From Gammaproteobacteria bacterium (lineage in GTDB: Bacteria; Pseudomonadota; Gammaproteobacteria; HK1), in the NCBI GenBank assembly GCA_020444775.1, contig JAGRHX010000015.1, positions 1-24,803 of the forward strand: a stretch of 24,803 nt of DNA. Direction: 5' to 3'. The notes under the pieces are model-generated. The model was given only the letters and a program-made list of their open reading frames with translations, was not told the DNA's origin and made no database searches. The first letter of the stretch is position 1. Each line of letters begins with the position of its first letter. Of the stretch, positions 1 through 19,504 are shown one piece after another. Made by a program: the position numbers and the translations under genes.

Positions 1-1089
1 AACGGCGCCGGCAAGAGCACCCTGCTGAAGATACTCGCCGGGACCCTGCCAAAGAGCAGCGGTGAGATCCAGGTGAATGGCAAGATCTCCGCGATCCTGG
101 AGCTCGGCACGGGGTTCCACGACGAGTACACGGGCCGTGAGAACATCGTCGTAGGCGGCATGTGTCTGGGGATGAGTCGTGAAGAGGTCGACACGAAGAT
201 GCAGTCGATCATCGACTTCAGCGAGCTGGAATCGGTCATCGACCAGCCGTTTCGGACCTACTCCAGCGGTATGCAGGCGCGTCTGACCTTTTCCACGGCG
301 ATCAGCGTCGAGCCGGATATTCTCATCATCGACGAAGCATTGGCGGCCGGCGATGCTTATTTCGTGCACAAATGCATGGCGCGGATACGCGACATCTGCA
401 CCAGCGGCGCGACCGTGTTGTTCGTGTCGCATTCCTCGGCCGCCGTGGAACGTTTGTGCACGCGTGCCCTGTGGTTGCAGGAGGGCAGGCTGGTGCAGGA
501 AGGTACCGCGATGGAAGTCTGTGCCGCATACGAGCATTTCGTATGGTCCAGGGTGGAGCGGGAGAATTTCGCGCGCAACGAGCGTGAGCTGGTCCGTCAG
601 CTGGATCGACGTCAGTCCGGGGGAAAGCGAGGCGGCACCTACGAGCTCGGCACGGGCGAGATAGAGATCAGTGATGTCGCGCTGCTCGACAGCCGGGGTG
701 AGCCGAGCACTACCTTCGCGCAGGGCGAGCCGATGACGGTTCGGATCAGTTGGACGGGAAGCACCGGGAAGCGGATTCAGCCGGTGGTGAGGGTGGATAG
801 CGCGACCGGCGGTATAGTCACGGGATGGAACGGCAATGAAGCAGATTGCGTGCACGAGGGCCTTTCCGGCAGTGGTAGCTTCGAGCTCGAGATCGGCCCT
901 GTGATGTTCGGGATGGGCGATTATCTGCTTTCAGTAGGCATCGTCGAGGATCTGTGGCAGCAATCAGAGGAAAGCACACTCTGCTACAAGCATCGGGTGG
1001 TGCGTTTCTCCGTCCGACGGCGTTATAAGCGGGAGCTGACCTACATGTTTGAGACGCCGGGGCAATGGACGCTCCGACATGAGACCTGA
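1..1089 (+). CDS. wzt: Wzt-like ABC transporter ATP-binding protein, polysaccharide export (5' end missing)
   Basis: ATPase subunit of an ABC exporter that would move a finished, lipid-linked glycan across the inner membrane together with a Wzm permease, which is not in the window. The frame is open from base 1 and begins inside the Walker A motif ([10 protein letters not shown]), so roughly the first 50 residues are lost; 362 residues remain. Then come the Q-loop region [16 protein letters not shown] typical of Wzt/TagH ATPases, the ABC signature YSSGMQARL, Walker [13 protein letters not shown] and the H-loop FVSHS. From about residue 215 to 355 a beta-rich domain follows (EISDVALLD... to FSVRRR), matching the position of the Wzt C-terminal glycan-binding domain, which recognises the terminal structure of the polymer in characterised systems. 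The next gene starts 14 bases downstream, so the two are probably cotranscribed. The family call is firm; the cargo is unknown. Confidence 0.93.
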
Positions 1090-2663: not shown

Positions 2664-2673
2664 AGAACACTGT

Positions 2674-2710
2674 GTCCATGCCTGTGATGTCGAATTGCCA
2701 TGGCATGGAC
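2674..2710. terminator. Inverted repeat between convergent genes, possible bidirectional terminator
   Basis: A perfect 9-base inverted repeat, GTCCATGCC at 2674-2682 and GGCATGGAC at 2702-2710, with a 19-base loop. It lies in the 76-base gap between the stop codons of the radical SAM gene and the GT4 gene. A 10-base palindrome, TGCCATGGCA (2696-2705), overlaps the right arm and could form a competing structure. No clear T-tract follows on either strand, so intrinsic termination is uncertain. Confidence 0.35.
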
Positions 2711-2739
2711 CAGCTCAGACTCGCCGTCGACCTCGTTGC

Positions 2740-3900: not shown

Positions 3901-3973
3901 TCTAGAATGGCCCCGTAGGCGCTCTTCTCGGCCGGCGGGTTCCCCCGCCTCGTCCGGTCGAGCCAGGTCGATG

Positions 3974-4861: not shown

Positions 4862-6558
4862 CGGACGTGCGCCTCTGTCGCTGTCATGGGCCCCGGTACG
4901 GCATCGAGCAATTGCCGGTATGCATGTAGATGGTCTCGGACGAGGCGACTCGGATGATGGTGTGTGGTGACCCAGTCGATGGCGCGCCGTCGATACTCGT
5001 GTCTGAAGCCTGGCTCGAGCGATCGGATGACCGCTTCGGCTACGCCGGCTTCATCGAATGCCGGGATTATGGGTGGCGGCTCACGGACTATCCATGCCGT
5101 GCTCTCGCTGCGGAACGACATCACTACCGGCGTGCCGGCGGCCAGCGCCTGTGGCGCCGTGGCGCCAAAATGCGGCAGTGTCATCTGATCCAGGACCACG
5201 TCGCAGGCCTTCATCCAGCGCATCAGCGCCTGCCGGCTCATCGGCTTCTGCCAGGCCACTGCGTGGCCGATACCCAGCTTCTCGACGAGATCGCGGCTGC
5301 GGTTCAGATCCTGCCCCCATTCGGTCAGGACCAGAACCGTGCGCCGAGACACGGCCTTCAGGATTGCGGGCATGGCGCGTAGATGGACATCCGTGCCCTT
5401 GGCCTCCCAGTCATGACGCAGCGGGCAGAACAACACTATCTCCGTGTTCAGGGATTGTCGTAATTGCTCATCGAATCCATCTGCGCAGACGTCTGGAATC
5501 TGGATGGGATGAATCATCGGTGTGAATCGTTGCACGCCGAGCCGCTCCGCGTATTCCCGACAATCGCCGTTGGTAATGAACACGTGACCACTCTCCCGAT
5601 AGGCGAGGGCAGTCATCCGATGTAGTGGGTTGTCGGCCTGGGTGAAATCCCTCAGTGTGCCGTGCTCGAATGCGCAGCGGACGCGGGCGCCACCCACGAG
5701 CGCGTAGATCGGGTCTACGGCGTAGGCCTGGACTATGTCGTAGTGTTGGAACAGTGTCGACCAGGCACGACGAAACAGCAGATAGGGGTACACGTCTTCC
5801 CGAGTGAGAGCGTCAGCTCGTTTCGGGAATCGATCACGAAATCTGCGTATCAGCGAGTCGGCAAGCCGACGGTCGTCGTGTCGTTCCTGCCTGAACAGCT
5901 GTGTGATCGCCATCAGCGAATCCGCGGCATGACCACCTGCCGTCACCAGGGCTCGGGTCAGTGCCGTGGGCCGGGCCGGGCCGCCGAGCAGACGGCGCAG
6001 ATGCCTTTGCACCTTCTCCCGCGTGGTGGCGGCCAGGACCAGGCGTTGGATCAACGCACGGAGCCGATACGAGCTGACTCCGCGAGCGGTTGGTCCCGCT
6101 TTTGGCCGGGTCCCGTTGACAACACCGAGTATCTCCCAAAGTCGCTGAGCGCGGTGCGCCTGACCGCTCCTACGCGCGCACAGGTAGTCGATCGCAAGCC
6201 TGGTTGGCCCCTGCGCAAACCACCGCGGACGCTCATAGCCGTTCAGTTCGACACGGGTCCAGTCAGGTCGGAACTGATTTCCAGGATCACCAACGAGGTC
6301 CGCCTCCTCCCACTCGGGGCAGCCCATGATGTGGTAATAGTCCTGGCAAAGCACGTCGCAGTCGATACCATTTTCGTTGAGGTATCTGGCATTCAGATAC
6401 GCGTTGTTGGCAATGTTGCCGATATGCAGCACGCGCAGCGGTCTGCCGACCCGGGACTCGAACGACTTCAACCAGATGAATGGATCGGCCGCTTCTTCAA
6501 GGGTGGCGCCAGTTGTCTCGTTGGTGTCGGCTATCCTGGGCGACTCGATCTCAGTCAC
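4858..6558 (-). CDS. Glycosyltransferase A, GT4-like with altered EX7E motif
   Basis: A 566-residue predicted glycosyltransferase, clearly paralogous to glycosyltransferase B at 8073-9887. Shared blocks include RPLRVLHIGNIANNAYLNA near residues 39-57, FEHGTLRDF in the middle, FITNGDC, LFCPLRHDWEAKGTDVHL, and DVVLDQMTLPHFGATAPQALAAG at 453-475. In the last block the two glutamates of the standard EX7E donor-binding motif are replaced by P462 and Q470. I place the start at GTG 6556-6558, preceded by AGGAGGGG about 10 bases upstream. An ATG at 6604-6606 in the same frame, with GAGG before it, would add 16 residues translated from the 3' end of the deacetylase gene. The ORF overlaps that gene by 8 bases. 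No membrane helix is evident; a basic helix-rich stretch in the first half could bind membrane. Donor unknown. Confidence 0.84.
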   Translation of the reverse strand: MTEIESPRIADTNETTGATLEEAADPFIWLKSFESRVGRPLRVLHIGNIANNAYLNARYLNENGIDCDVLCQDYYHIMGCPEWEEADLVGDPGNQFRPDWTRVELNGYERPRWFAQGPTRLAIDYLCARRSGQAHRAQRLWEILGVVNGTRPKAGPTARGVSSYRLRALIQRLVLAATTREKVQRHLRRLLGGPARPTALTRALVTAGGHAADSLMAITQLFRQERHDDRRLADSLIRRFRDRFPKRADALTREDVYPYLLFRRAWSTLFQHYDIVQAYAVDPIYALVGGARVRCAFEHGTLRDFTQADNPLHRMTALAYRESGHVFITNGDCREYAERLGVQRFTPMIHPIQIPDVCADGFDEQLRQSLNTEIVLFCPLRHDWEAKGTDVHLRAMPAILKAVSRRTVLVLTEWGQDLNRSRDLVEKLGIGHAVAWQKPMSRQALMRWMKACDVVLDQMTLPHFGATAPQALAAGTPVVMSFRSESTAWIVREPPPIIPAFDEAGVAEAVIRSLEPGFRHEYRRRAIDWVTTHHHPSRLVRDHLHAYRQLLDAVPGPMTATEAHVR

Positions 6559-7291
6559 CTCGCAACTTCCCCTCCTGTTCGCGAGCGTGCTCGTCGCAGT
6601 ATCCATCCAATGCCTCAGTCATGCCCATGGAGCGTATGCCCTCGCGCTTCATCGTTTCACACAGTTCGACGAAGAAGTCATGGACGCCAGGTTGCGGAGA
6701 CCGTATGTGCTCGAGCGGCGCTCCGTTGAGGAACGGATCCCGTTGCTTGAAGTACCAGTCCGCCGAGCCGCAGTTCATGAGCAGATGTATCGGATGGAAG
6801 TCGAACACATAGACGCCGGCACCACTTACTGCCGTGTCGATGATCTGCCTGGAGAACGGTTTGTGCTCCATACCAGCCCAGAATCGCGACTGCGAGAAGT
6901 CGAGATTGTCCATGTAGAAGATGGGCATCTGCCAGACACCCCAGCAGTGTCTGTGCGGACGCACATCGGCGCGCCCGAAATCGTCGTGGGTGCTGACCCA
7001 GCGATACCCCATGCTCGCGACCTGCTCGGCGAGCATGTGGCTGAAAACACAGGAATGAGATCGCCAGCCCTGTGCCTCTGGCAGCATCTGACGTTTCTGC
7101 TCGAGCTCGGCACCCCATGCCTGGGCTTCGCCCAGGAAAGGGTGCGGGCCGAGCTCGTGGCCGGTGGCGGACAGGCACGGGTAGTCCTGGGTGCAGAAAA
7201 AGGTCGCGGTTCCCGGGATCTCGACGGCTTCGAGAAACTCCTGCATCCGCGCCTCATCCATGTGGTCGGTGTCGAAACTGATGCAGATCAT
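6551..7291 (-). CDS. Polysaccharide deacetylase-like protein, NodB homology (small)
   Basis: A 246-residue protein with the NodB-fold sequence of motifs: SFDTDH (D7, D9) at the N-terminus, ATFFC, the metal-binding type HELGPH (H45, H50), GWRSHS around 76-80, and FDFHPIH (H166) late in the chain. This family usually removes N- or O-acetyl groups from sugars using a divalent metal held by Asp-His-His. Without a signal peptide it would act in the cytoplasm, on a nucleotide-sugar or lipid-linked intermediate. The start ATG at 7289-7291 overlaps the stop of methyltransferase 1 (ATGA), and the stop overlaps the start of glycosyltransferase A, so four adjacent genes are likely to be translated in a coupled way. 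Some cytoplasmic members have no known activity, so deacetylation is inferred. Confidence 0.84.
   Translation of the reverse strand: MICISFDTDHMDEARMQEFLEAVEIPGTATFFCTQDYPCLSATGHELGPHPFLGEAQAWGAELEQKRQMLPEAQGWRSHSCVFSHMLAEQVASMGYRWVSTHDDFGRADVRPHRHCWGVWQMPIFYMDNLDFSQSRFWAGMEHKPFSRQIIDTAVSGAGVYVFDFHPIHLLMNCGSADWYFKQRDPFLNGAPLEHIRSPQPGVHDFFVELCETMKREGIRSMGMTEALDGYCDEHAREQEGKLRGD
6569..6576 (-). promoter_or_regulatory. Ribosome-binding site deciding the glycosyltransferase A start
   Basis: On the minus strand the sequence reads AGGAGGGG, followed by 10 bases and then GTG at 6558-6556. It lies inside the 3' end of the deacetylase gene. It favours the GTG start over the ATG 48 bases upstream, though the spacing is slightly long. 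Confidence 0.5.
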
Positions 7292-8076
7292 TGGCGCTTC
7301 TTCAGGATGTAACCGACCAGATGACCGATGCCCTCGAAGTCGGGGATGCGTTTGGCAATCTCTCGAGCGACCTCGTTGAGGGGGTGATCGTAGCGAGGCG
7401 GCTCCGGTGCGGCGAGTAGTGGCTGGATGATACGGGTCAGGAAGTAGTACATGCCGAAGCGCTGCACCCGCACCAGCTCGTACATGGGGTCGACGTACTC
7501 GAGCAGTTGCGATTCATGGAATTTCAGCGTCAGCAATCTGTCCTTCCCGGAGGCGTCGATTTCGCCAAGTCCGAACATGCGCCGGTAGTAGTTGAGGCGA
7601 TCCAGACCGTCGAAGGTGCCTTCCATCAGGACCAGGATGCCGCCCGGCTTGAGCACCCGATGCAGATCGGTCAGCGCGGTCTTCTGCAAATCCCAGTCCA
7701 GCAGCGCCATCAGGCAACGATGGCTGGTGATGACATCGAACTGCGCATCGTCATAGGGCAGCTCGGCCACCGAGCCCTGGCGGAAATCGATGCTCACCTC
7801 GAGGTCGGATTCCGCGAGCCGCTCGCGAGCCATGTTGACCATGTTCTCGGCATAGTCCAGACCATGCGCGGTAATCCGCCGGCGAGTGGCATAGCAACGC
7901 AACGCGTAACCGAGACCGCAGCCGACGTCGAGGACGGTGTCGCCGTCCCGCATGTACTCCAGACCCAGATCGATCTCGAGCTCCCTCAACAGATAGTCCG
8001 ACGCGGTGGTCTTGTCATCCTTGCTGAGCGCAATGCTCTCATAACGCTGCCTGAGAATAGTATCGTCTCCGCTCAT
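7288..8076 (-). CDS. Class I SAM-dependent methyltransferase 1
   Basis: A 262-residue methyltransferase with motif I VLDVGCGLG at residues 48-56, a following acidic SAM-binding loop GLDYAENMVNMAR, DVITSHRCLMALL as motif II, and RVLKPGGILVLMEG as motif III. The C-terminal third (from about residue 165) is family-specific and may recognise the substrate. The ATG at 8074-8076 overlaps the stop of glycosyltransferase B by four bases, and its own stop overlaps the deacetylase start, placing it in a tightly coupled block. It probably O- or N-methylates a sugar in the glycan or caps the chain. In ABC-exported O-antigens a methyl cap can set chain length, but there is no sign that this enzyme does that. 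Confidence 0.88.
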   Translation of the reverse strand: MSGDDTILRQRYESIALSKDDKTTASDYLLRELEIDLGLEYMRDGDTVLDVGCGLGYALRCYATRRRITAHGLDYAENMVNMARERLAESDLEVSIDFRQGSVAELPYDDAQFDVITSHRCLMALLDWDLQKTALTDLHRVLKPGGILVLMEGTFDGLDRLNYYRRMFGLGEIDASGKDRLLTLKFHESQLLEYVDPMYELVRVQRFGMYYFLTRIIQPLLAAPEPPRYDHPLNEVAREIAKRIPDFEGIGHLVGYILKKRQ

Positions 8077-9887
8077 TGCGGCTCTCCAATCAGTTTTCGG
8101 TAGACTTGTAGATGCTCGCGCACGCTCCGGTCATGGTGATGACAATTGTCGACCCATGATCGTGCATCCCGCTCGAACTTGTCCCGCCACTGCGGCTGCA
8201 TGGCGGTACGTACTGCCTCGGCGACTTCTTCGGGATTGAATGCGGGCAGAATCGGCGCGGGGTGTGCGACGATCCACTGCGTGCTGCTCGGCTGGTAGCT
8301 CATCACGACCGGTGTGCCGGCGGCAAGGGCCTGTGGCGCAGTCGCGCCGAAGTGGGGCAGCGCGATCTGGTCCAGGACAACGTCGGCGGCGTGCAGGTGA
8401 TGGATGAGTTGAATCCTACACAGTGGCGGGACCCATCTGACGTTGTCCTCACAATCCAACTCCCGGACCAACTCGCGACTGCGCTGCACATCGCGTCCCC
8501 AGTTGGTGACCACCAGCACCACATGCTCGCCAAACCAGCGTTTGATCAGCGGCAGGGCCTGGAGGTGGATATGCGTTCCCTTCACCGCCCAGTCATGACG
8601 TAGCGGACAGAAGAGCAGCAGCTCGCCAGCATACTCACGCGCCAGTGCCGCGACCGCGCCATCGTCGATGTGACGATGCTGATCGACGTCTACAGGGTGA
8701 ATCATCGGCGAGCACTTGCGTATACCCAGTTGCGCCGCGATTGGCTGGCAGTCGCCATTGGTGATGAAGGTATGGTCCGCCAACCGGTAGGCCAGTGAGG
8801 TCAGCCTGTGTAGTGCAGAGTCGCCTGCCGTGAAGTCGCGGAGTGTGCCGTGCTCGAAAGCGACGTATGGCCGTGTCCCGCTGAGCAGCAACCAGACCGG
8901 CTCGGTGCCGTAGCCCTGCACGATGTCGAAGTGGGCGCATATGCGTTGCCACAGCGGCAGGTTGGCGGCGTATGGAGCCATGTCCTCGCCGGTCAAACGG
9001 TCGCTGCGTTGCGGGAACACCTCGGCGAATCGACGTATCAGTTCTGTCCGCGATTCCGCTGGGCTCGCACAGGCGGGGGCAGCTGCGTCCGGGGTTGAGT
9101 CTGCCGATGGCCCCGGCGACGCAACGGACGATGCCACCGATGTCGATTCACTTGTCGATGATCCTGGCTGGCCGGCTGGACGTTGGCTGCGACCCGCCGG
9201 TGCCATGATTGTGGCCTTCAGGCGACTCGCCGTGCCGAACAGGGTCGTCTTGATGGCATGGAGCAGGCGGAACCCCATCCATTTCAGCTTCGCGACCAGC
9301 GACAGCAGGCGGTGACGGGTGACCCGGAGTTGGTAGCAGACGGCCGCCAGACGGGCCCGCAGCTTCGCGCACGCGGCGGAGCGCTGGAGGCGGATGGCGA
9401 TGGGCAGGAAACGCCAGAGCGCGCCGGCCTTGATCCGGCGATCGTCGAATACGGCGTCCATATAGTCCGCGCAGGGCGCGACCGGTCCCTGCACGAACCA
9501 GCGCGGGCGCTGCCAGTCCAACGTATCCCTCGCTGAGAAGCGCGGCAGATACTCGTCGCCGAAGCCGTGTCGGATATCGACCTCCTCCCACTCCGGCGTT
9601 GCCAGCGCGTGGTAGTAGTCGAATGCCAGAACCCACGCGTCTACGCCCGCGCGTCTTTGTAGCTTGGCATTGAGAAAGGCGTTGTTCGCGATGTTTCCGA
9701 CATGCAGGACTCGCAGGGGCCGGCCTTTTGCCTGCTGAAATCGGGTCAACCATTCCGCGGGGTCGACGAGCGCTGCGTCCTCTACGCTCGAGGATCCTTG
9801 CGGCGAATCATGCGCGGCCGACCATGCGCCGGGACTCGAGCTGGCGGTCGCTTGCGGTTCGACGGGCCTGCCCTTGCTCGCGGTCAT
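8073..9887 (-). CDS. Glycosyltransferase B, GT4-like, paralogue of A with a disordered insert
   Basis: A 604-residue predicted glycosyltransferase sharing the architecture of glycosyltransferase A: RPLRVLHVGNIANNAFLNA at about 56-74, AFEHGTLRDF, FITNGDC, LFCPLRHDWAVKGTHIHL and DVVLDQIALPHFGATAPQALAAG near 502-524. The EX7E positions are again P511 and Q519. Unlike A it has a serine/alanine/proline-rich segment at about residues 231-279 that looks disordered. This follows a basic helix-rich stretch (about 160-230) that may bind the membrane surface. The first 35 residues are also low in complexity. The ATG directly follows the TAG of the aminotransferase gene (TAGATG), and the stop overlaps the start of methyltransferase 1. 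Its function is inferred from the fold; donor and acceptor are unknown. Confidence 0.84.
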   Translation of the reverse strand: MTASKGRPVEPQATASSSPGAWSAAHDSPQGSSSVEDAALVDPAEWLTRFQQAKGRPLRVLHVGNIANNAFLNAKLQRRAGVDAWVLAFDYYHALATPEWEEVDIRHGFGDEYLPRFSARDTLDWQRPRWFVQGPVAPCADYMDAVFDDRRIKAGALWRFLPIAIRLQRSAACAKLRARLAAVCYQLRVTRHRLLSLVAKLKWMGFRLLHAIKTTLFGTASRLKATIMAPAGRSQRPAGQPGSSTSESTSVASSVASPGPSADSTPDAAAPACASPAESRTELIRRFAEVFPQRSDRLTGEDMAPYAANLPLWQRICAHFDIVQGYGTEPVWLLLSGTRPYVAFEHGTLRDFTAGDSALHRLTSLAYRLADHTFITNGDCQPIAAQLGIRKCSPMIHPVDVDQHRHIDDGAVAALAREYAGELLLFCPLRHDWAVKGTHIHLQALPLIKRWFGEHVVLVVTNWGRDVQRSRELVRELDCEDNVRWVPPLCRIQLIHHLHAADVVLDQIALPHFGATAPQALAAGTPVVMSYQPSSTQWIVAHPAPILPAFNPEEVAEAVRTAMQPQWRDKFERDARSWVDNCHHHDRSVREHLQVYRKLIGEPQ

Positions 9888-11033
9888 CTAGTTCACTCTG
9901 CTCAGGGCCGTATGAAGTGCTTCCACCACCTGCTGCTGGTCGGACTCGCCTATGCCCGGGAACAGCGGCAACGTGATCGTCGTATCCTCGGCATCCCGTG
10001 CAAAAGGGAAGTCTTCGGCGGACAGACCATAGCGTTCGCGGTAGTAGCCAAGGCAATGCACGGCGTGTGTTCCCGGCCGCGTCTGGATCGAACGCTCGGC
10101 AAGATGAGCCATGATTCGATTGCGACGCAGGCGCCCGCCCTCGGTGAGTCGGATCACGTACGACTGGTAGGTATGTCCAGCGCCGTCCGTACCCTCTATC
10201 GGCGACTCGAGGTCTGGTAGCGAGGCCAGCAGCTCGTGGTAGCGCAGCGCCGCGGCATGTCGCTCGGCGAGCAGGCCATCGAGGCGCTGCAGCTGTGCGA
10301 CACCAACTGCTGCCTGAATGTCGGACATACGCAGATTGAAGCCGAGTACCTCGAAGCGTGCCATCGTCCAGGGACCATGTGGTTCGACCTCTTCCGGCTC
10401 TGGACCGGTCGCACCGTGATTGCGCAGGGCCCGAACGCGTCTGGCCAGCTCGTCGTCTCCGGTGCTGACCATGCCTCCCTCACCGGTGGTGACGACCTTG
10501 CGCGGGTGAAAGGAGAAACAGCCCAGGTCGCCCAATGTGCCCACGGGTCGACCGCGGTAGCTGGTGCCGATTGCGCAAGCGGCATCCTCGATCACGGCTA
10601 TTCCACGGGGTTGGGTGATCTTCAGTATCGGTTCCATGTCGGCAGCCAGACCAAACAGGTGCACGACGACCACGGCCCGGGTTCGTTCGCTGATCGCGTC
10701 CAGCAGTTTCGCTGGATCGAGGTTGAAGGTCCTCGGATCGATATCGACGAAGCGTACTTCGGCACCCATGTATCGCGCACAGTGGGCCGAGGTGACCCAG
10801 GTGAAAGCGGGCACTATCACCTCGTCGCCGGGCCCGAGCTCGAGCGCTGCCGCGGCCAGATGCAGGGCCGCCGTGCAAGATGTGGTTGCCAGCGCGTGCC
10901 TGCTTGCATGCCGCTCGGCGAAGCTTTTCTCGAACTCGTCTACATACGGTCCCTGCGTTACCCAGCCGCTCGCCAGGCACCGCCGTAGGTACTCGATCTC
11001 TTCGTCCCCGAACGCGGGAAAGGTTAGCTGCAT
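9888..11033 (-). CDS. DegT/DnrJ/EryC1/StrS-family sugar aminotransferase
   Basis: A 381-residue PLP-dependent enzyme that would transfer an amino group, usually from glutamate, to a keto-sugar nucleotide. The N-terminus has GWVTQGPYVDEFEK, then ATTSCTAALHLA (phosphate-binding region), EVIVPAFTWVTS, VIEDAACAIG with the PLP-ring aspartate D150, and SFHPRKVVTTGEGG with the Schiff-base lysine K179. NLRMSDIQAAVG in the C-terminal half is also diagnostic. Length is normal for the family. It starts 12 bases after the sulfotransferase stop, with AGGA about 10 bases before the ATG. The keto-sugar it uses would need a 4,6-dehydratase or oxidase, and none is obvious in the window. Its product is a natural substrate for the LpxD-like acyltransferase of the same operon. 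Confidence 0.95.
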   Translation of the reverse strand: MQLTFPAFGDEEIEYLRRCLASGWVTQGPYVDEFEKSFAERHASRHALATTSCTAALHLAAAALELGPGDEVIVPAFTWVTSAHCARYMGAEVRFVDIDPRTFNLDPAKLLDAISERTRAVVVVHLFGLAADMEPILKITQPRGIAVIEDAACAIGTSYRGRPVGTLGDLGCFSFHPRKVVTTGEGGMVSTGDDELARRVRALRNHGATGPEPEEVEPHGPWTMARFEVLGFNLRMSDIQAAVGVAQLQRLDGLLAERHAAALRYHELLASLPDLESPIEGTDGAGHTYQSYVIRLTEGGRLRRNRIMAHLAERSIQTRPGTHAVHCLGYYRERYGLSAEDFPFARDAEDTTITLPLFPGIGESDQQQVVEALHTALSRVN

Positions 11034-11045
11034 GCTGCTTTGATC

Positions 11046-12089
11046 CTAGCTGTTTGGGTCGAACGCCGGCTCGTTCGTCCGGGGCCCAGCCGAACGGTCC
11101 GCGTGCTCTGCCAACGCCCTGTCCACGCTCGTGCACAGGGCTGGTGGCAGCAAGGCGCCGCTCGCCATATGCAGATCCGGTAGCGGTTCGCGACGCAGAG
11201 CAGGCAGGTGCCCCAGCTCGCCGAGTCTCTCTCTGACGAGCTCGATAACACGCTGTGGAGACCGTATCAGCTGCTCGTATGATACATCCAGACGGCGCGT
11301 CTCCAGGCCCGAGAGCTCCTCGTCGAGGTCGCCTAGCGTGCCCAGGTATTGACGCACCACCGATACCGCGGGATCGGTTTCGTGCTCGATCTCCGGGAAA
11401 TTGGACGGCTTCACTGACCACCAGCTATCGAAGCGACCATAGCGGGCCTTGCGAGCCGCCAGTATCGAGCGACAGGCCGGGCCGGCCTCCCTGACGATGT
11501 TGATGAACAGCGCATTCGGATGAGCGTGCGCCAGCAGCTGGGCGTTCAGTCCGCAGATGACGTTCTTGAACAGCACTGGAAGCCCAAAGCCGCCGAGCAG
11601 CTCGTGTCGGAGCGTGTCGCCGAGTGCGCGTACATCGATATGTTCTCGAGCGACGGTGTCCAGTCGGTGCGTCGGCTGAGCATCCAGCTTCAACCAGTGT
11701 CGCCAGAAGTAGCCGAACTCGTGATGACCGGCCGGCTCGCGGGTCACGCCGTGCCGCGAGTCGAACGCGGTCTGGGCCACGGCATCGGCGCCGAGCACCG
11801 CTCGTGACAGGACCACGCCGACCAGGGGGCGAAGGTAGAAGCGCGCGACGATGTTGTCGATATAGCCCAGCCGCAGAGCGTGTATGAGCACCTGGGCAAG
11901 CAGGGTCGTGCCCGAGCGTGGTGCGCCGACCACGTAGATCAGCGGTAACTCGGCTATCTCGGCGGGCACATGCCAGGCAAGTGGCAGCGCCTGGCAGGCC
12001 TGATTCACCTGCAGCAGCAAGTGCTCCGAGTCCGCATCCTTGGCGTATTCGGGCAGGCGTTGCCCTGCGTCGTGCGGGTCGCTCAGCAT
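11046..12089 (-). CDS. Sulfotransferase, PAPS-dependent type
   Basis: A 347-residue protein whose clear signature is the 5'-phosphosulfate-binding loop GAPRSGTTLLAQ at residues 55-66, preceded by the beta strand LPLIYVV. A possible 3'-phosphate-binding stretch is FINIVREAGPACRSILAARKARYGRF. It would transfer sulfate from PAPS to a hydroxyl or amine, probably a sugar of this glycan. The start at 12087-12089 overlaps the end of FemAB-like GNAT 1 by 7 bases. No PAPS-synthesis genes are nearby, so PAPS would come from general sulfate assimilation. There is no membrane segment, so sulfation would happen before export. Bacterial proteins of this fold can have other substrates, including lipids and peptides. 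Confidence 0.88.
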   Translation of the reverse strand: MLSDPHDAGQRLPEYAKDADSEHLLLQVNQACQALPLAWHVPAEIAELPLIYVVGAPRSGTTLLAQVLIHALRLGYIDNIVARFYLRPLVGVVLSRAVLGADAVAQTAFDSRHGVTREPAGHHEFGYFWRHWLKLDAQPTHRLDTVAREHIDVRALGDTLRHELLGGFGLPVLFKNVICGLNAQLLAHAHPNALFINIVREAGPACRSILAARKARYGRFDSWWSVKPSNFPEIEHETDPAVSVVRQYLGTLGDLDEELSGLETRRLDVSYEQLIRSPQRVIELVRERLGELGHLPALRREPLPDLHMASGALLPPALCTSVDRALAEHADRSAGPRTNEPAFDPNS

Positions 12090-13156
12090 GACTGCTTCAA
12101 CCAGTGACTCGGATAGCAGTAGTAGTAGGGCAAGGCCTGGAGTGCCCGGTCGACCTCGTTCGGGTCAGGGGCGTGGTCCGACCAGCTACCCGACACCAGA
12201 TAGCTGTATGGCCGTGACTCGGCGCCCCAGCCTGCCTTGAAATGCAGCAGGGAGGTCTGGGTCTGCCAGGTGCCTCCCCAGTTCCAGTTCCGGTACCCCT
12301 GCGCCGAGGTCTCGAGCATCGCCCGATAGATCAAGAACGACAGCGCCTGCCGCGAGCGATACTCCTGACGAACGACCGGCGTGATGTACTCTACCGTATC
12401 CCGCCACAGCAGCAGCAGAAGGGCGGCCGCCGGCGTGCCTTCACAGCGTGCCAGCGACAGACGCAGCCCGGATGGTCCGAAGCAGCGTCTGAGGGCTTCG
12501 AAATGTGGCCAGGGCTTGGACCTGCCACCGAGCGCGCTCATGTTCTCCCGATGGGTCTGATACAAGAAGCACCAGGCCTCATCGTCCGATCTCAGTTCCT
12601 CGACGAAGCCTTGCTTCAAGGACTTGCGAACCAGGTTTCGCGTCTTCTGCGAGAGATGCGCGAGCAACGCGCCCGGTTGATCCTCCTCAGTAGCCGGCAT
12701 CGTCGTCACCTGACCGATGCGCGTGTCGCCCAGCCGCGCGCCTGTATGCGCCACATAGCGAGCTCGAAATGCTTCTTCGCTTGCGGTCAACACCATCGTC
12801 GCGGACAGAACGTCAGGCGCCAAAGCCCTCTCATGCCAGGCCTCGAGCAGGGCGTGACGAGCAGCGTCGTCACTCGGGTCTTGCAGTACACAACCGCCGT
12901 GGGATCCGAACCACGGCAGGCTGTTCAGCACGAGGCCCCTATCGGGAACGGTACCGGTGCAGAACGGTAGGACACCGACGATCGAATCTGCCTTACGAGC
13001 GATGAGACAGTCCGGCGTACCACCGGCCGTCGCAGCGAGGAATTGCGCGAAGGCCCGGCTGGCGTAGATCGTACCGGCCTCGCAGCTCTGTACGAAGGCG
13101 TCATACTCGGGACAAGTGGCGGGATCGAGGCGCTCGATATGCAGCGACGATGACAT
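12083..13156 (-). CDS. FemAB-like GNAT-fold acyltransferase 1
   Basis: A 357-residue protein of the FemAB/BioF2-like GNAT group. Visible features are an N-terminal half with PEYDAFVQSC, IYASRAFAQFLA and IVGVLPFC. A basic KTRNLVRKSLKQGF segment is followed by a second half with LSLARCEGTPAAALLLLLW, YRSRQALSFLIYRAML and NWGGTWQTQTSLLHFKAGWGA. The last block matches the typical end of FemAB-like domains. Family members transfer aminoacyl groups from tRNA, or acyl groups from carriers, to amines. In exopolysaccharide loci such proteins are common but their reaction is mostly unproven. The gene starts 27 bases after glycosyltransferase C with AGGA before its ATG, and ends inside the sulfotransferase start. 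Confidence 0.83.
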   Translation of the reverse strand: MSSSLHIERLDPATCPEYDAFVQSCEAGTIYASRAFAQFLAATAGGTPDCLIARKADSIVGVLPFCTGTVPDRGLVLNSLPWFGSHGGCVLQDPSDDAARHALLEAWHERALAPDVLSATMVLTASEEAFRARYVAHTGARLGDTRIGQVTTMPATEEDQPGALLAHLSQKTRNLVRKSLKQGFVEELRSDDEAWCFLYQTHRENMSALGGRSKPWPHFEALRRCFGPSGLRLSLARCEGTPAAALLLLLWRDTVEYITPVVRQEYRSRQALSFLIYRAMLETSAQGYRNWNWGGTWQTQTSLLHFKAGWGAESRPYSYLVSGSWSDHAPDPNEVDRALQALPYYYCYPSHWLKQSC

Positions 13157-13183: not shown

Positions 13184-14842
13184 TCAGTCGTCAGCCGACT
13201 GACCCGGAAACTCCGGCGCCGAGCTCAATGCCTGGGCATGATACTCCCTTTCAACCTTGCTGATTGGGTTCGCCAATGGCGACCGGCCGTGGCTGAAGAC
13301 GTGTCCGCGCGCGGTCGCAATCAGGAGATCCCTGCAAACCGGCGCCCACTTGCCGGAACCGTGATTGATCTGGAACCAGCGTCGGTGCTCGCGGCTCGCG
13401 GCTTCCCGGGTCTCGCGACTGCTGGCCAGCGTGGTCAGCGCGGTGGCCACCTCTTCGGCGCTGGCGGCGTTAAGGACCGGCGGCGCGCCGGTCTCGCAAA
13501 GTGCCTGGTATTGTTCGCCCTCGAGTCGCATCACCACAGGCAGACCGCAGGCCATCGCTTCGAGCGCGCTGGCCCCGAAGTAGCCGATACGAAACTGCTC
13601 GAGCAGGCAGTCGGAGGCGCGTAGGTAGTCGATCAGGCGCCGTTTGGCCGCCGGCCGGACCACCAGCACGCGGTCACCCAGACCCTGCTCGCCCAACCAG
13701 GTCTGCACCGGCCGAAGGTCTCGTCCCCATCCGAGCAGGACGAGACGAGCCCCGGGAAAGCGGTTGGCGAATCGGGCGAAACCCTCCAGGCCGACCAGCG
13801 AGCCTTTGTCCTCGAAATCCATGCGGGCCGTGGAGAGGACGAAGAAATCGCCGCCGGTACGAGCCTCCCAGTCAGGTCTGGCCTTGCCCTCACCCGGGCT
13901 ATAGCGCTCCTCGTCGAGGAAGAAGGGGACGTATACGACGTTCCGGAACCCGTAGCGTCGCGCGTGCGCATAGGTCCAGGGATTGGAAGCAAGTATCGCG
14001 TTGGAGCAGGCGAATGCGCGCCGTTGGATATGTCCGAGCAGATCGCCCCGAGAGCACTCGACCCAGATCTCACCCCCAGTGTGGGCGGTCAGGTACGGTC
14101 TGTTGGCCAGATAGGCAAGATAGGGAACCTGTGCGGAGAGCAAAGCATCATATCGACCCAGCTCGCGTAGCAATGGCTCGTAGCAGAAGTAATCGGAGAA
14201 GCGGAACACATCGGCACGGCGCGCGAATTGAAAGCGTTCGGGCCAGCCAGGCTTGCGCTCGTTCATCAGCGACTGGATCATGCTGCCGAAATCGGTGCAG
14301 GTGTCGGGTGAATAGGTACCCTCGACCGGTGACAGCTTGAAGCCGTGCTCGGTCAGTCGGTCGAAATCCATCTCATCGAGCGGCAGTTCCCGGTCGCTTT
14401 CCTCCCAGGCGGGTTGACTCATCACGAATCTGTCGTGTGGGTGGATATAGATGTCCACATCCACGCCTTGACGCCGAAGCGCTGCGGCTCGCACATAGAG
14501 GTAATTGGCCAGGTTGCCAACGAACGCGAAGCGATGCGGTGTGGCATCGCGTCCGCTGATTTCCGCTGCCAGCGCCCACACCTGCTCGCTATAGTTGCGT
14601 GCCGCTCGCAGGTTCTCCGCGGTGAGCCAGGGATGTCGCCACGGTTCATGGTCCCAGCTCTTCCAGGCTGACACCGAGCTTGCACGCAGCGTGTGCAGGG
14701 CGCGTGCCCGGTGGTCCGGTCGCAGACGCAAGGCGAGCTCCGCCACCCAGCGTTCGAACCGCAGCCGGTTCCGGAGGCAACCGCGCGGTGCGCGATAGAG
14801 GCTGTTGGACGCAACCAGGGCTTGCTCGAACTCACCCGCCAT
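13184..14842 (-). CDS. Glycosyltransferase C, GT4-like, distant relative of A and B
   Basis: A 552-residue predicted glycosyltransferase. It shares with A and B the N-proximal pattern FAFVGNLANYLYVRAAALRR followed by QPAWEESD, and a C-terminal donor region LLEQFRIGYFGASALEAMACGLPVVM at about 413-438. Here the first glutamate of EX7E is glycine (G420) but the second, E428, is kept, as in GT4 subfamilies with a DQ...GxYG pattern. Other blocks are LSTARMDFEDKGSLVGLEGFARF and RLVLLGWGRDL, typical of GT4 donor domains. An extra N-terminal segment of about 110 residues precedes the GT-B fold. It starts 7 bases after the Kelch gene stop. The sequence does not say which sugar it moves. Confidence 0.84.
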   Translation of the reverse strand: MAGEFEQALVASNSLYRAPRGCLRNRLRFERWVAELALRLRPDHRARALHTLRASSVSAWKSWDHEPWRHPWLTAENLRAARNYSEQVWALAAEISGRDATPHRFAFVGNLANYLYVRAAALRRQGVDVDIYIHPHDRFVMSQPAWEESDRELPLDEMDFDRLTEHGFKLSPVEGTYSPDTCTDFGSMIQSLMNERKPGWPERFQFARRADVFRFSDYFCYEPLLRELGRYDALLSAQVPYLAYLANRPYLTAHTGGEIWVECSRGDLLGHIQRRAFACSNAILASNPWTYAHARRYGFRNVVYVPFFLDEERYSPGEGKARPDWEARTGGDFFVLSTARMDFEDKGSLVGLEGFARFANRFPGARLVLLGWGRDLRPVQTWLGEQGLGDRVLVVRPAAKRRLIDYLRASDCLLEQFRIGYFGASALEAMACGLPVVMRLEGEQYQALCETGAPPVLNAASAEEVATALTTLASSRETREAASREHRRWFQINHGSGKWAPVCRDLLIATARGHVFSHGRSPLANPISKVEREYHAQALSSAPEFPGQSADD

Positions 14843-14849
14843 CGATTCG

Positions 14850-15974
14850 CTACCAGAGGACCGGATCGTCGTCTCGCTGCCCCTGCAGGCAGCGCCACGA
14901 GAAGTCCCGAAGGTCCAGTCGCCACAGATCGCTCACGTGTCCATGCAGGCCTTCTCCACCCCACAGGTACATGTGGTCATCACGTCGCGCTACGCCTGAC
15001 TTCGCGTGAAAGCCTGGTCGTTCGGTGCTGCCATCGTAGATATGCGGGCTGTCGCCGTGGATGGGCCGCCAGCGGCCGCTTGCGAACTCGAGCATCCACA
15101 GGTCGCTGAAGTTCGATACGGGCGGGATGCGTGAGCGTCCACCGAACATCACCAGGCCATCTGGCACTCTGACCATTGCGGCACAGTAGCGAGGCGCTGG
15201 CACGTCCAGACCTTTTTGATCGGGAGCGAGCAACGCCCAGCGCTCGTCCCTGAAGTCGAATCGCCAGGCATCGATATGGTCTCCGTCGTCGCTGAAGCCA
15301 CCGCAGACATAGAACCCGTCGTCGTCCTGCGCGGTCATGCAGCCATAGCGGTCGGCTGGCCAGTGCCCTTGACTGCCGTAGTCCTTGGACGGAGGTGCGG
15401 GAACCTCGCGCCACTGCGAGTTCTCGCGGATCCAGAGATCGGACATCTTTCGCTTGCCCAGTGCATCCTCGGTATAGCCGCCGTACAGATAAAGTCGATT
15501 CGGCACGGCCGCCATCACGGGCGTGTAGCGCGCGGGCGGGCGTAGCGGCGGCGAATGCTGCGCTCGGCTCGACGATAATTTGGGTTCAATACAATTCCAG
15601 CGCTCAGCGACCGGCTCGTAGCTCCAGAGATCGTCGATGAAGTTGTGTCGCAGCCGTCCGTTCCCAGCCGACTCTACCCCCGAACCGCCCCACAGCAGCA
15701 GTGCTTCAGTGGTGCTTACCCATCCAGCGCATCTGCGCCGCTCCGGCCAGATGACGTCGTGCTCGATGAGGCTCCAGTCCAGGCTGTCGATGTCCAGTCG
15801 CCAGAGCTCGTCAGTGACGTCCAGATATGACTCGCTCAATGTGTGTGCACCCACACCGCCGAACATATAAAGCGAATCGCCAAAGTTCACCAAGGCCGGT
15901 GACCGACGGGATGTGGGACGCGCAGCGGATGCCACACGCTCCGGCGAGTCTGTATGCTTGATGTCAGATGACAT
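14850..15974 (-). CDS. Kelch-repeat beta-propeller protein, six repeats
   Basis: A 374-residue protein made almost entirely of six Kelch repeats. Each has a hydrophobic strand ending in a Gly-Gly pair (residues 39-40, 96-97, 165-166, 225-226, 278-279, 339-340), a DLW or DAW-type strand, and a conserved tryptophan (67, 126, 188, 246, 302, 360). This predicts a six-bladed propeller filling the chain, with only about 24 extra residues at the N-terminus. I see no signal peptide, membrane segment or attached catalytic domain, so it is probably cytoplasmic. The frame is open to 16109, but that would overlap the upstream gene; the ATG at 15972-15974 lies 11 bases after its stop. Kelch propellers usually act as protein- or ligand-binding scaffolds, and some, such as galactose oxidase and N-acetylneuraminate epimerase (NanM), act on sugars. 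Which applies here is unknown. Confidence 0.88.
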   Translation of the reverse strand: MSSDIKHTDSPERVASAARPTSRRSPALVNFGDSLYMFGGVGAHTLSESYLDVTDELWRLDIDSLDWSLIEHDVIWPERRRCAGWVSTTEALLLWGGSGVESAGNGRLRHNFIDDLWSYEPVAERWNCIEPKLSSSRAQHSPPLRPPARYTPVMAAVPNRLYLYGGYTEDALGKRKMSDLWIRENSQWREVPAPPSKDYGSQGHWPADRYGCMTAQDDDGFYVCGGFSDDGDHIDAWRFDFRDERWALLAPDQKGLDVPAPRYCAAMVRVPDGLVMFGGRSRIPPVSNFSDLWMLEFASGRWRPIHGDSPHIYDGSTERPGFHAKSGVARRDDHMYLWGGEGLHGHVSDLWRLDLRDFSWRCLQGQRDDDPVLW

Positions 15975-15985
15975 GGTAATCCGGT

Positions 15986-17479
15986 TCAGAAACCTAGCGC
16001 TCGTCGCAGGTCGACGGCGAACTGTCGAAGCGTGGAGAATCGGGCACGTCTTCGTGCCGAATGGGTTTCCCTGCGAACGAACCAATTCAGGCAATCTGCC
16101 ATCGTCCAAGGCGTGAAGCCGGAATGCACCAGTTCACGCATCGCACCGTGCATTTGTAGAGTCTCCTCTACGTTCTGCGGGTGAAGATTGGCGACAACGA
16201 TGCCCGGCAGCCGGCGAGCACGGATGGCATCGGCAAGGTCGAGCACTGCCCGTGCGCCGTCAGCGTCCGTGCGACCCAAGGCTCCAACGATACCATCACC
16301 AATGGCGGTCAGAACCGTCCAATGCTCGGTGAGTCGGCCGTCCAGATACAAGCGAGCCGGTAGCAACGAGCCGTTCAGGACGCGACCATCCACACCTGGG
16401 ACATTGCTGCTGAACCTGACCTTCTCGGCTTCCCAGGGACCATGATGTCCCCAATAACCCTGATTCAGATAGCCGTGATTACGTACGGAAGACGGCTCAC
16501 GTCCAAACTGCTTCCTGAACCAGTGCATTTGCAGTCGAAACAACTCGGCATAGCGCTCCGGCGCATCACAAGCATCTGGATGGATCCCCAGGTCGAAATC
16601 GACCCACTGCCGCAGGTCACGCAGGGTCGCGCGGGTATGCCGGGTCTGCGGATGCATGAACCAGGTGAGGCGCAGATCGGCCAGGACCTGGGCCTGGCGG
16701 GCATACTTCTCCAGATAGGCCTGATCGTCATCGCCGGTAATGATCACCGCGCCGGGCGCGTCATCGGGCAGCAAGCCCACGCGGGTCATGGCGCCCAGCT
16801 CGACCAGCGAGCGGCCAAGCAGCGCCGTCCAGTCATCCGCGGGCCGTTGGTGGTGAGCCAGACCCTCGACCTGATGCGTGTACAGATGAACCGGCCGCTC
16901 GAAGCTGAAGCCCCACTGTTCCGCGGGCACGCATCCCGCACGTTGCGGATCACCCTGCCGGAAACGCAATGCATCCGCGAGCGGGTCCGTCCCCAAGACC
17001 AGTATCTGGCTCTGCTGCAGTCGGGCCCGATACCAGACCGGGTTCCCCTGACTGTCCTGGAGCAGACGAGTGGCGGCCGACGCGGCGTAGCCATGATAAT
17101 CGTGCAAGGTCCGGACGCTGTTGAGAGACGGTTCGGGCTCAGGGCTATCGAGGTCGGTGCCTGCCGCGCCGGAATACACCTGACTTGGTAGTCCAAGGCG
17201 TGACAGAAAGCCCGGTGCAGGCTGAATGGCCACGAACACGGCTGGGCTTTCGGCCGCAACCTGCACTGCATCCGCGTCCTCAGCGTCGGGATTGAGCAGC
17301 CAATGGAGCGTTCCCACGTGCGCGGACTCGGACGTTTCGAATCCGACGCAGCGTAGCAGATGCTCCGCCAGCTCCGTCAGGGCAGCTGGCTGGATTGTCG
17401 TGTTCCGTGCACCGGGTCTGCAGTCCACATCGATCTCGAACGGGATCTGAGAGGCGCGTCGCTGGACGTCATCATTCAT
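15986..17479 (-). CDS. Large NodB-like polysaccharide deacetylase-family protein
   Basis: A 497-residue protein with two parts. Residues 1-240 have no family I recognise; they include GTLHWLLNP, HDYHGYAASAATRLLQD and ILVLGTDPLADALRF. From about 243 the order of motifs is that of the NodB fold: VIITGDDDQ (D250-D252), LTWFMH, FDLGIHPD (H300), SVRNHGYL (R333, H335) and VVANLHPQN (H433). This suggests a metal-dependent hydrolase or a non-catalytic relative; motif 2 has only one clear histidine where the usual HxxxH has two. The gene overlaps FemAB-like GNAT 2 by 8 bases and is followed 11 bases later by the Kelch gene, suggesting a linked function. No signal peptide is seen. Confidence is good for the fold and low for the reaction. 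Confidence 0.72.
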   Translation of the reverse strand: MNDDVQRRASQIPFEIDVDCRPGARNTTIQPAALTELAEHLLRCVGFETSESAHVGTLHWLLNPDAEDADAVQVAAESPAVFVAIQPAPGFLSRLGLPSQVYSGAAGTDLDSPEPEPSLNSVRTLHDYHGYAASAATRLLQDSQGNPVWYRARLQQSQILVLGTDPLADALRFRQGDPQRAGCVPAEQWGFSFERPVHLYTHQVEGLAHHQRPADDWTALLGRSLVELGAMTRVGLLPDDAPGAVIITGDDDQAYLEKYARQAQVLADLRLTWFMHPQTRHTRATLRDLRQWVDFDLGIHPDACDAPERYAELFRLQMHWFRKQFGREPSSVRNHGYLNQGYWGHHGPWEAEKVRFSSNVPGVDGRVLNGSLLPARLYLDGRLTEHWTVLTAIGDGIVGALGRTDADGARAVLDLADAIRARRLPGIVVANLHPQNVEETLQMHGAMRELVHSGFTPWTMADCLNWFVRRETHSARRRARFSTLRQFAVDLRRALGF

Positions 17480-18719
17480 GGGAACCGAGGCCCAGGCGCA
17501 GCATTCTCTTCAGTGTCGACCTCTTCATTGCCGGTGCAGGTCGAGGGACGGTTGTCTCAGATGCTGACGTGAGGTCCGGTGGCTCCGGTTGCGCGTTGCG
17601 CGCGTCGTCACCGGCATGGCAATTGAGCCTCAGTATCTGCTCGCCCACCTCCAGATAACGCTCTGGATGACGAAAGAATGACCCCTGCACCACTGGAAGG
17701 CTGTGTCCAGCGAACTTCTTCTTGAAGCGGGAAACCCTGGATACCGGCCAGTCCAAGGGCAGGGTGGGAAATATCGGTCCGAGGCGGTAGCGTTGCGCGC
17801 CGAGCGATTTTGCCAGCTCAATCGCACTGTAATGCAAGAAATCATTGACTCGATACCCCAGCATCTCGGGATCCGAGACACCCGCCAGGAATGACGCGCT
17901 ACCCTTGTCCACGAGCAAGATGAGAGCTGCCGCATCAGCGTCATCGAAGCGGGTAAATATCAAGTGTAGCTTGTCGACTGGCGCGAACGTATCGACCAGA
18001 TCGGCGAAGTATGCAAGAGGCGCCAGACTCTCGCCAGTGCGAGCCGCGGACTTCGTCGCCAGCGCGTAGTATCTCTCCACGCCGGCTCGTCCGGCCGCTG
18101 TTTCCCCAGTCAGGGCGGCTCGACGTGCCTTGCGCAGTGCGCGACGGCAGGCAGGGTCAAAACGTGCTTCCAGGGCTTGCAGATCGCTGTCGAGCTCGAC
18201 GACCTGGTCCAGCGCATGAGTCGACATGCCGGGCGCGGGCGCCATGCCGTTGGGGCCCATCTGGATACCGGGCTCGAAGCCATGCTCGCGCAACCAGAAA
18301 GGTACCGGCGGACCCGACTTGTCGAGACAAGCTGGCGCGAGGGTATGCATCCCCAGTTGGATCCTGTCGCAGTCACGCGCATCTGCAATGCGCAAGATCT
18401 CCTGCATGATCCGGCGCTGCACGGCGGTCCGAGCGGCATCAACGACGTCATCACGAATCGCGATCCCGGCGACTCGCAAACCGGATGCGAGCACGCGTTC
18501 AGTGAAGAAGCCCAGGCCAAGCTCATATACGTACAGCGGGACTATCGCGAGCACCTCTCCGTCCGCATCTACAATGCCGAAGCTGTGCTGTTCCTTCGCC
18601 CCGTGCTTGTGCTCCAGGGTGACCCAGGCGTGGCTATGGAACAACCAGGCCTGCCGCGAACGCTCGTAGCAAGCGTCCCAACGAGCGGCGGAGATTTCCG
18701 AGTGACTTGCGAGCTTCAC
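17472..18719 (-). CDS. FemAB-like GNAT-fold acyltransferase 2
   Basis: A 415-residue protein of the same broad group as the protein at 12083-13156 but very divergent. It opens with HSEISAARWDACYERS and LFHSHAWVTLEHKHG, followed by VLAIVPLYVYE. Basic RRALRKARRAALTG precedes a second GNAT-like half with RFDDADAAALILLV, SFLAGVSDPEMLGYRVNDFLHYSAIELAKS and RYRLGPIF, ending in RFKKKFAGHSLPV. It would acylate or aminoacylate an amine, plausibly an amino-sugar of the glycan. The start is GTG at 18717-18719, overlapping the stop of methyltransferase 2 (GTGA). The product therefore sits in a coupled set with methyltransferase 2, the large NodB-like protein and the Kelch protein. The substrate is not known. 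Confidence 0.77.
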   Translation of the reverse strand: MKLASHSEISAARWDACYERSRQAWLFHSHAWVTLEHKHGAKEQHSFGIVDADGEVLAIVPLYVYELGLGFFTERVLASGLRVAGIAIRDDVVDAARTAVQRRIMQEILRIADARDCDRIQLGMHTLAPACLDKSGPPVPFWLREHGFEPGIQMGPNGMAPAPGMSTHALDQVVELDSDLQALEARFDPACRRALRKARRAALTGETAAGRAGVERYYALATKSAARTGESLAPLAYFADLVDTFAPVDKLHLIFTRFDDADAAALILLVDKGSASFLAGVSDPEMLGYRVNDFLHYSAIELAKSLGAQRYRLGPIFPTLPLDWPVSRVSRFKKKFAGHSLPVVQGSFFRHPERYLEVGEQILRLNCHAGDDARNAQPEPPDLTSASETTVPRPAPAMKRSTLKRMLRLGLGSHE

Positions 18720-19504
18720 GCGACCGGCTTGTGAAAGACGACGTTGAAGCGAAACGGTGCGTATACCCAGCTGTCCGGCAACGTCAGGAACTCCGTCGTG
18801 GCCCCAAGCGACCTGCCGAGGTGGGCAAAATCCTCACGTTCGAAGTAATAGCACGTTATCGCAGGCGGCGGTGCATCATCGCGCTTGCGCAGCCAACGGC
18901 GAAACCGAAGCAGAGGTCCGGCCACGGGCTCGGGACCGGTGGTGGCTTGGGTCGACAGGCTCGCCTGAACCCGTTGCACCTCTTGAACGAAGGCTTCTTC
19001 CTGTGCCGCGTCGGGCACCGAACCCACCAGCACCCGACCACCTGGCTTGACGACCTTGAACATCTGCCTGACCAGATCCGCCGCCGCTTCGAAGCTCGGC
19101 AGATTGGTGATCACGTCGTAGCTGAACGCATGGTCGATTGTGCCTTCTGGGAACGGCAACTCCATGCCGTCGCCAAGCCGAAACTCGGCATTGGCCAGAC
19201 GCAGCCTTCGCGCCACCTTGAGTGGCTCCATGGCGATGTCGACGCCTACATACCTGCCAACTCGGGGCGCGATTCCGCGCGCGATGAAACCTGCGGCGCA
19301 GCCGAGCTCCAGTAGCTCGTGGTCCTTTGTGGCACCGAGCATGCGGATGATGCTGTCCACCAGATCCTGGTAGGCCGGGGTGTTGGCCCAGAACCTCGGG
19401 TCTCGTCCGCTGACATAACAGAGCGCTTCCCAGCTCGGCAACCCGTCAATCAGCTCGGCACGTTCATCGAAGAACCGCTTGGCCGATTCCTTCCAAGTCT
19501 CCAT
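18716..19504 (-). CDS. Class I SAM-dependent methyltransferase 2
   Basis: A 262-residue methyltransferase with motif I LLELGCAAGFIARG at residues 64-77, acidic residue D89 in VGVDIAMEP, DHAFSYDVITNL as motif II and VVKPGGRVLVGSVP as motif III. It has the same length as methyltransferase 1, but outside the SAM-binding core the two differ strongly, so they are not recent duplicates. A 102-base gap separates it from the amidotransferase gene upstream, the largest gap inside the operon. I found no convincing promoter or terminator there. The stop overlaps the GTG of FemAB-like GNAT 2. It likely methylates a sugar or a substituent in the glycan pathway. Confidence 0.87.
   Translation of the reverse strand: METWKESAKRFFDERAELIDGLPSWEALCYVSGRDPRFWANTPAYQDLVDSIIRMLGATKDHELLELGCAAGFIARGIAPRVGRYVGVDIAMEPLKVARRLRLANAEFRLGDGMELPFPEGTIDHAFSYDVITNLPSFEAAADLVRQMFKVVKPGGRVLVGSVPDAAQEEAFVQEVQRVQASLSTQATTGPEPVAGPLLRFRRWLRKRDDAPPPAITCYYFEREDFAHLGRSLGATTEFLTLPDSWVYAPFRFNVVFHKPVA

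Follow-up and report, generated by a model that had tools for sequence, protein, structure and literature searches.

What is a Kelch propeller doing inside an operon that builds glycans? The question is raised by a 24,803-base stretch of DNA (the window), which appears to be one whole contig (JAGRHX010000015.1, assembly GCA_020444775.1) of a gammaproteobacterium. On its minus strand, a gene for a Kelch protein follows a NodB-type deacetylase gene after 11 bases (15975-15985) and precedes a glycosyltransferase (GT) gene by 7 bases (14843-14849), gaps that an earlier reading of the letters alone (the original prediction) had given correctly. Our answer, held with slightly less than even confidence, is that the protein is the cytoplasmic subunit that binds a glycan intermediate, and possibly an enzyme, in a module that deacetylates and acylates glycans; both the binding and any catalysis are predictions.

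A propeller conserved on one face

The Kelch gene starts with ATG at 15974 and stops at 14852-14850. Its product shows the repeats of a Kelch beta-propeller, with spaced aromatic residues and six GG doublets at regular places (residues 39, 96, 165, 225, 278 and 339). The Pfam models PF24681 and PF13418 match it with 148.5 bits (cut-off 50) and 98.9 bits (cut-off 21.6), and an AlphaFold2 model built on a 42-sequence alignment contains six four-stranded blades, with a mean predicted local distance difference test score (pLDDT) of 90.3 and a predicted template modelling score of 0.90. Residues 1-15 form one low-confidence stretch, and the last block has a pLDDT of 61. The six repeats originally described are therefore borne out by the doublets, the Pfam scores and the model. 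The database gene call, P0002, has 329 residues and starts 45 residues later, within blade 1; the N-termini of homologues support the 374-residue start.

Export was judged by a Kyte-Doolittle hydropathy screen of 12-residue stretches, not by a signal-peptide predictor. Within the first 45 residues, the most hydrophobic stretch has a mean of 0.97 and lies inside blade 1. The in-frame upstream extension (TTG at 16109) scores 0.43, and on this low hydropathy export by way of another start codon was rejected. By this screen, the claim that the window protein has no export signal holds, with the extension included. Among the matches listed, 100 homologues have at least 340 residues; a mean of 2.0 was attained by one of them (P0072, with the stretch within blade 1) and 1.6 by 15. 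In two of the eight top scorers, P0096 (1.97) and P0081 (1.85), the hydrophobic stretch precedes blade 1, and export of these two is not excluded.

A protein search returned 139 matches at E ≤1e-3, the closest about 46-50% identical over nearly the full length. The best 120 were listed, one being the window's own entry; another, P0042, is named Candidatus Accumulibacter. The alignment (the window protein and 41 of the 119 others listed) has 44 invariant columns, and by this measure the relatives form one coherent family. A pattern scan of the contigs of 84,980 species genomes found three clear family loci. One (L001, whose Kelch protein is P0020) lies on a 4.9 kb contig of a metagenome-assembled genome labelled Brevinema andersonii, with uncertain binning; the other two (L002 and L003) are in alphaproteobacterial metagenome-assembled genomes and encode divergent members. 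Four further candidates (L004-L007, 24-25% identity) were judged to be different Kelch proteins and were not counted.

In the model, loop conservation is confined to one face of the propeller, that of the BC and DA loops. The limits of the strands were placed manually, guided by the DSSP assignment of the model together with the pattern of the repeats; DSSP extends strands B and C into the loop in blades 3 and 4. Positions at least 90% identical account for 49/89 in the BC loops and 23/91 in the DA loops, compared with 0/15 in AB and 0/22 in CD (0/37 together); the values for strands A to D are 1/28, 6/29, 7/30 and 6/34. After generic Kelch motif positions were masked, the BC/DA face retained 41/145 against 0/37 (Fisher p 3e-5, which is descriptive because the data were already known when the mask was defined). 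With His included, 28 charged residues are conserved: 18 in BC loops, seven in DA loops and three in the C-terminal tail.

Of the 120 listed proteins, 112 terminate precisely with the motif D[DE]PxxW, as do L001-L003. Among the eight exceptions, P0003 is two residues longer, P0038 reads TNDPIFW, P0105 reads DDPCFR, and five differ otherwise, some perhaps being cut. With the final strand of blade 6 preceding it, the tail would, by Kelch topology, exit on the DA/BC face. The divergent members retain much of this pattern: when 40 conserved residues were compared with the family's commonest letter, L002 kept 29 and L003 kept 28. From residue 225 onwards they keep 21/24 and 20/24, against 8/16 each before it.

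Genomic company of the family

Shared contigs were inferred indirectly, from source contigs of exactly equal size, with 200 shifted controls; 119 each of the 139 Kelch, 254 NodB and 213 GT matches were compared, the window's own being excluded. Kelch and NodB homologues shared a contig in 12 matches (control mean 0.58, maximum 3), and NodB and GT homologues in 13 (control mean 0.52, maximum 3). For the Kelch protein, the data source agreed in 17/17 pairs (12 with NodB and five with GT). Linked Kelch homologues thus make up 17/119; the remaining 102 do not count as unlinked, since the lists of neighbours covered 119/254 and 119/213 of the matches. The procedure also failed to detect one true Kelch-NodB linkage, that of L001.

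At L001, the order can be read directly: a Wzt-like ATPase, a methyltransferase, FemAB and NodB parts fused in one frame, and the Kelch gene. The ATPase's Wzt C-terminal domain falls just under the cut-off (28.1 vs 30.4). The methyltransferase label comes from Pfam; comparison with the methyltransferase of the window gave no match at E 1e-5, so that the two are alike in kind only. No GT was seen in the remaining 126 bases of L001, and the window's GT has no match in genome G001. FemAB beside Kelch was seen only in the window and in L001. Similar FemAB::NodB fusions are P0127 and P0152 (both named Bradyrhizobium) and P0222; these have 841-851 residues, with an Acetyltransf_6 domain listed beside a NodB-type part, and the window's FemAB protein is 43% identical to the N-terminal FemAB part of P0127. 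P0269 (921 residues) is a NodB::GT fusion. The two types of fusion bind the genes of the module together. A middle stretch of the NodB-type part of P0269 is absent, and this part is possibly a domain without catalysis.

The two divergent loci have another company. They share the order Kelch, a GT other than the window's (58% identical between the two loci) and an enolase-superfamily gene. Upstream of Kelch, L002 has an aminotransferase (DegT), an oxidoreductase, an asparagine-synthase-like gene and a NeuB-family gene (PF03102, 280 bits); the L003 contig stops just upstream of its Kelch gene. The L002 cluster spans 1806-13057, with gene labels from Pfam. Recurrent linkage with NodB, FemAB and GT genes was found for the family as a whole, not for L002 and L003. 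Of the adjacency anticipated by the original prediction, contig sharing with NodB and the methyltransferase-FemAB-NodB-Kelch order of L001 were recovered; the scatter of homologues that it had named as a refutation occurs in the distant branch only.

Could the gene be incidental cargo, brought along when a glycan island recombined and serving no particular function in it? Its spread is patchy: besides the three clear relatives in 84,980 species genomes, focused scans found 0/369 in the class of G006, 1/296 in the phylum of G001 and 2/22 in the order of G002, merely recovering those already known. The NodB profile, which does recover the known G001 site, gave 0/369 in the class of G006 and 0/385 in that of G002. 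For both scans of the G006 class and for the NodB scan of the G002 class, at most four or five candidates per genome were scored, and misses are possible. The strong conservation of face and tail and the repeated linkage argue against cargo, which we regard as very improbable. Neither the viral contigs nor the plasmids searched contained a Kelch relative (the search did not extend to the phage and E. coli collections), the viral contigs contained no NodB relative, and PADLOC matched none of three proteins; a viral, plasmid or defence origin of Kelch was rejected on these grounds.

Candidate roles of the conserved face

We suggest that the Kelch protein is dedicated, in the cytoplasm, to a module of methyltransferase, FemAB/GNAT-type acyltransferase, NodB-type deacetylase and GT, which would modify a glycan ahead of export through a Wzt-type ABC transporter. 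In this scheme, deacetylation by the NodB-type enzyme would expose an amine for capping by the FemAB-type enzyme. The BC/DA-loop face, with the protein's own D-D/E-P-x-x-W tail on it, may bind a lipid- or nucleotide-linked glycan intermediate in the cytoplasm, and Kelch would present or convert this intermediate for the deacetylase or acyltransferase step; for the face itself, we lean towards binding and presentation over catalysis. A precedent for the pairing is known from the Caulobacter holdfast, where HfsH and HfsK are a cytosolic polysaccharide deacetylase and a GNAT/FemABX-related acyltransferase proposed to act on polysaccharide or glycan precursors (accessible text of PMC5362036). By analogy, this is the likely logic of the window's NodB and FemAB neighbours. 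The same accessible text includes no Kelch protein and does not use the word "kelch".

Several observations weigh against this proposal. Linkage of Kelch with GT homologues is only moderate, because the five matches (control mean 0.51) compare with a control maximum of 4. The module also turns up where no Kelch was detected: the 119 Kelch contigs in the comparison, which are the best of longer lists, include none of the 13 that NodB and GT share, although this does not prove absence. In the DNA covered, L002 and L003 show no NodB or FemAB neighbour of Kelch, and the NodB profile is unmatched in their genomes. In P0008, a match to the NodB C-terminus lies in frame upstream of Kelch, and it is weak, covering 31 positions with only 13.4 bits; it may reflect a fusion or an effect of gene calling. 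The window protein deviates at three near-invariant positions, K286V, Y322F and N114D (at 286, 39/42 aligned sequences have K), and for this reason may be an altered member. The conserved face could equally serve a protein partner.

This last possibility is the basis of an adaptor role, in which the face or the fixed tail would recruit the NodB, FemAB or GT protein. Likeness to the Kelch domains of KLHDC2, KLHDC3 and LZTR1 (similar fold, about 20% identity) invites the comparison: these proteins are eukaryotic, KLHDC2 and KLHDC3 serve ubiquitin ligases, and C-end degron receptors of the KLHDC type have a pocket for a free C-terminal peptide, to which the family's fixed C-terminus is a suggestive parallel only. 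However, similarity of fold shows no function, and L002 and L003 keep most of the late-blade face residues and the tail where NodB and FemAB do not adjoin. We consider the adaptor unlikely. The confinement of loop conservation to one face, with its 28 charged residues, argues that the face receives a particular ligand or partner and against a merely passive scaffold. A small-molecule or glycan site shared by all members fits better than a passive scaffold, because this one-sided, charge-rich conservation persists in the late blades and tail where the neighbourhood changes.

The same face could instead be an active site closed by the tail, Kelch being a sugar-ring or isomerising enzyme (mutarotase, epimerase or lyase) that resembles NanM without being NanM. 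H, K, R, D and E are dense on it (YHAK, GHVSD, GGRSRxxPK, GDHxD), and 12 such residues are kept in both L002 and L003: R81, D232, R280, K286 (V in the window), H323, K325, E341, H346, D349, R367, D369 and D370. All 42 aligned proteins match the mutarotase model TIGR03547 at E ≤0.001 (best 1.6e-17), and the NeuB-family gene in the same cluster as Kelch in L002 indicates sialic-acid-type chemistry, which keeps the idea of a sugar-acid mutarotase alive for that branch. However, the window's match is local (52/346 positions), no catalytic residue could be mapped, and no NeuB-type gene was found among the window proteins scanned. Moreover, the accessible text of PMC8141875, written of vertebrates, states that the region holding the catalytic residues is absent from NanM's Kelch homologues. 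An enzyme of this kind is, like the adaptor, improbable.

NanM itself was rejected as an identity, and the comparison in the original prediction does not stand as family membership: the curated cut-offs are missed for TIGR03547 (26.4 vs 256.35), NF010730 (25.5 vs 416) and PF24996 (27.2 vs 45). The PF24996 cut-off was passed by P0044 (56.9, best stretch 78 residues), not by P0042, P0006, L001, L002 or L003. NanM/YjhT, the N-acetylneuraminate mutarotase (TIGR03547, PF24996), is kept as an analogy, being likewise a Kelch propeller tied to bacterial sugar chemistry with local repeat similarity. It is periplasmic according to the accessible text of PMC8141875, whereas the window protein has no visible export signal. 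NanM belongs to sialic acid catabolism, and the window protein to a glycan-building operon. Another Kelch group, the plant specifier proteins (ESP, TFP and NSP1), has the iron-binding motif ExxxDxxxH. This motif occurs in 3/42 aligned proteins (at their own residues 101, 117 and 118) and is absent from the window protein, and an iron site of this type was rejected.

Our first choice is that Kelch binds and presents a glycan intermediate; catalysis and a protein adaptor share second place, and all are predicted roles. Of the ideas originally offered, a merely passive scaffold is disfavoured by the one-face conservation, and sensor, enzyme and adaptor are not separated. A bolder proposal, for which we see a minority chance, is that the family represents a novel class of Kelch proteins in the cytoplasm, either enzymes or receptors for glycan intermediates. 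The protein's own C-terminus (D-D/E-P-x-x-W-COOH), exactly positioned, would complete or gate the active face, and the class would serve a deacetylate-and-(amino)acylate module in the remodelling of export-bound polysaccharide. A literature search, in which subscription journals were thinly covered, turned up neither a paper on this Kelch family nor a bacterial Kelch protein that takes part in glycan assembly in the cytoplasm.

The gene row and its meaning

Table 1. Positions of the Kelch gene, its conserved segments and its neighbours in the window
Feature	Positions	Strand	Remarks
Kelch propeller gene	14850..15974	-	374 aa, six blades, no export signal visible
C-terminal tail GQRDDDPVLW, residues 365-374	14853..14882	-	ends in family motif D[DE]PxxW
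Blade 6 BC loop GGEGLHGHVSD, residues 339-349	14928..14960	-	also kept in divergent members
FHAK (family YHAK), residues 322-325, loop preceding blade 6	15000..15011	-	
Blade 5 BC loop GGRSRIPPVSNFSD, residues 278-291	15102..15143	-	
Blade 4 BC loop GGFSDDGDHID, residues 225-235	15270..15302	-	
Blade 3 BC loop GGYTEDALGKRKMSD, residues 165-179	15438..15482	-	
NodB-type (CE4) deacetylase gene	15986..17479	-	ends 11 bases before Kelch
FemAB/GNAT-type acyltransferase	17472..18719	-	PF13480, PF02388; 415 aa; 8-base overlap with NodB gene
Methyltransferase	18716..19504	-	PF08241; 4-base overlap with FemAB gene
Glycosyltransferase (GT)	13184..14842	-	PF00534; 552 aa; 7 bases downstream of Kelch
Second FemAB-like gene	12083..13156	-	PF13480
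Sulfotransferase-family gene	11046..12089	-	PF13469; same gene row as NodB-type gene
ABC transporter ATPase, Wzt C-terminal domain	1..1089	+	PF14524; truncated by window edge

The product of the NodB-type gene has the NodB-type deacetylase fold of CE4 enzymes and carries an extra N-terminal part; its third-ranked Foldseek match is human heparan sulfate N-deacetylase/N-sulfotransferase 1 (9f6z). At 6551-7291 lies another gene resembling a deacetylase, this one of the WbmS type (PF22537). Two long glycosyltransferase paralogues (4858-6606 and 8073-9887) are 42% identical over 573 residues. Right after the Wzt-type ATPase, a radical SAM/SPASM protein is encoded on the plus strand (1104-2663), facing the minus-strand gene row.

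In sum, the evidence points to a specific role of the Kelch protein in building or modifying a sugar chain. With its conserved face, fixed C-terminus and linkage to deacetylase-type genes, the family is a compact lead to an unrecognised step in the making of amine-modified surface polysaccharides.
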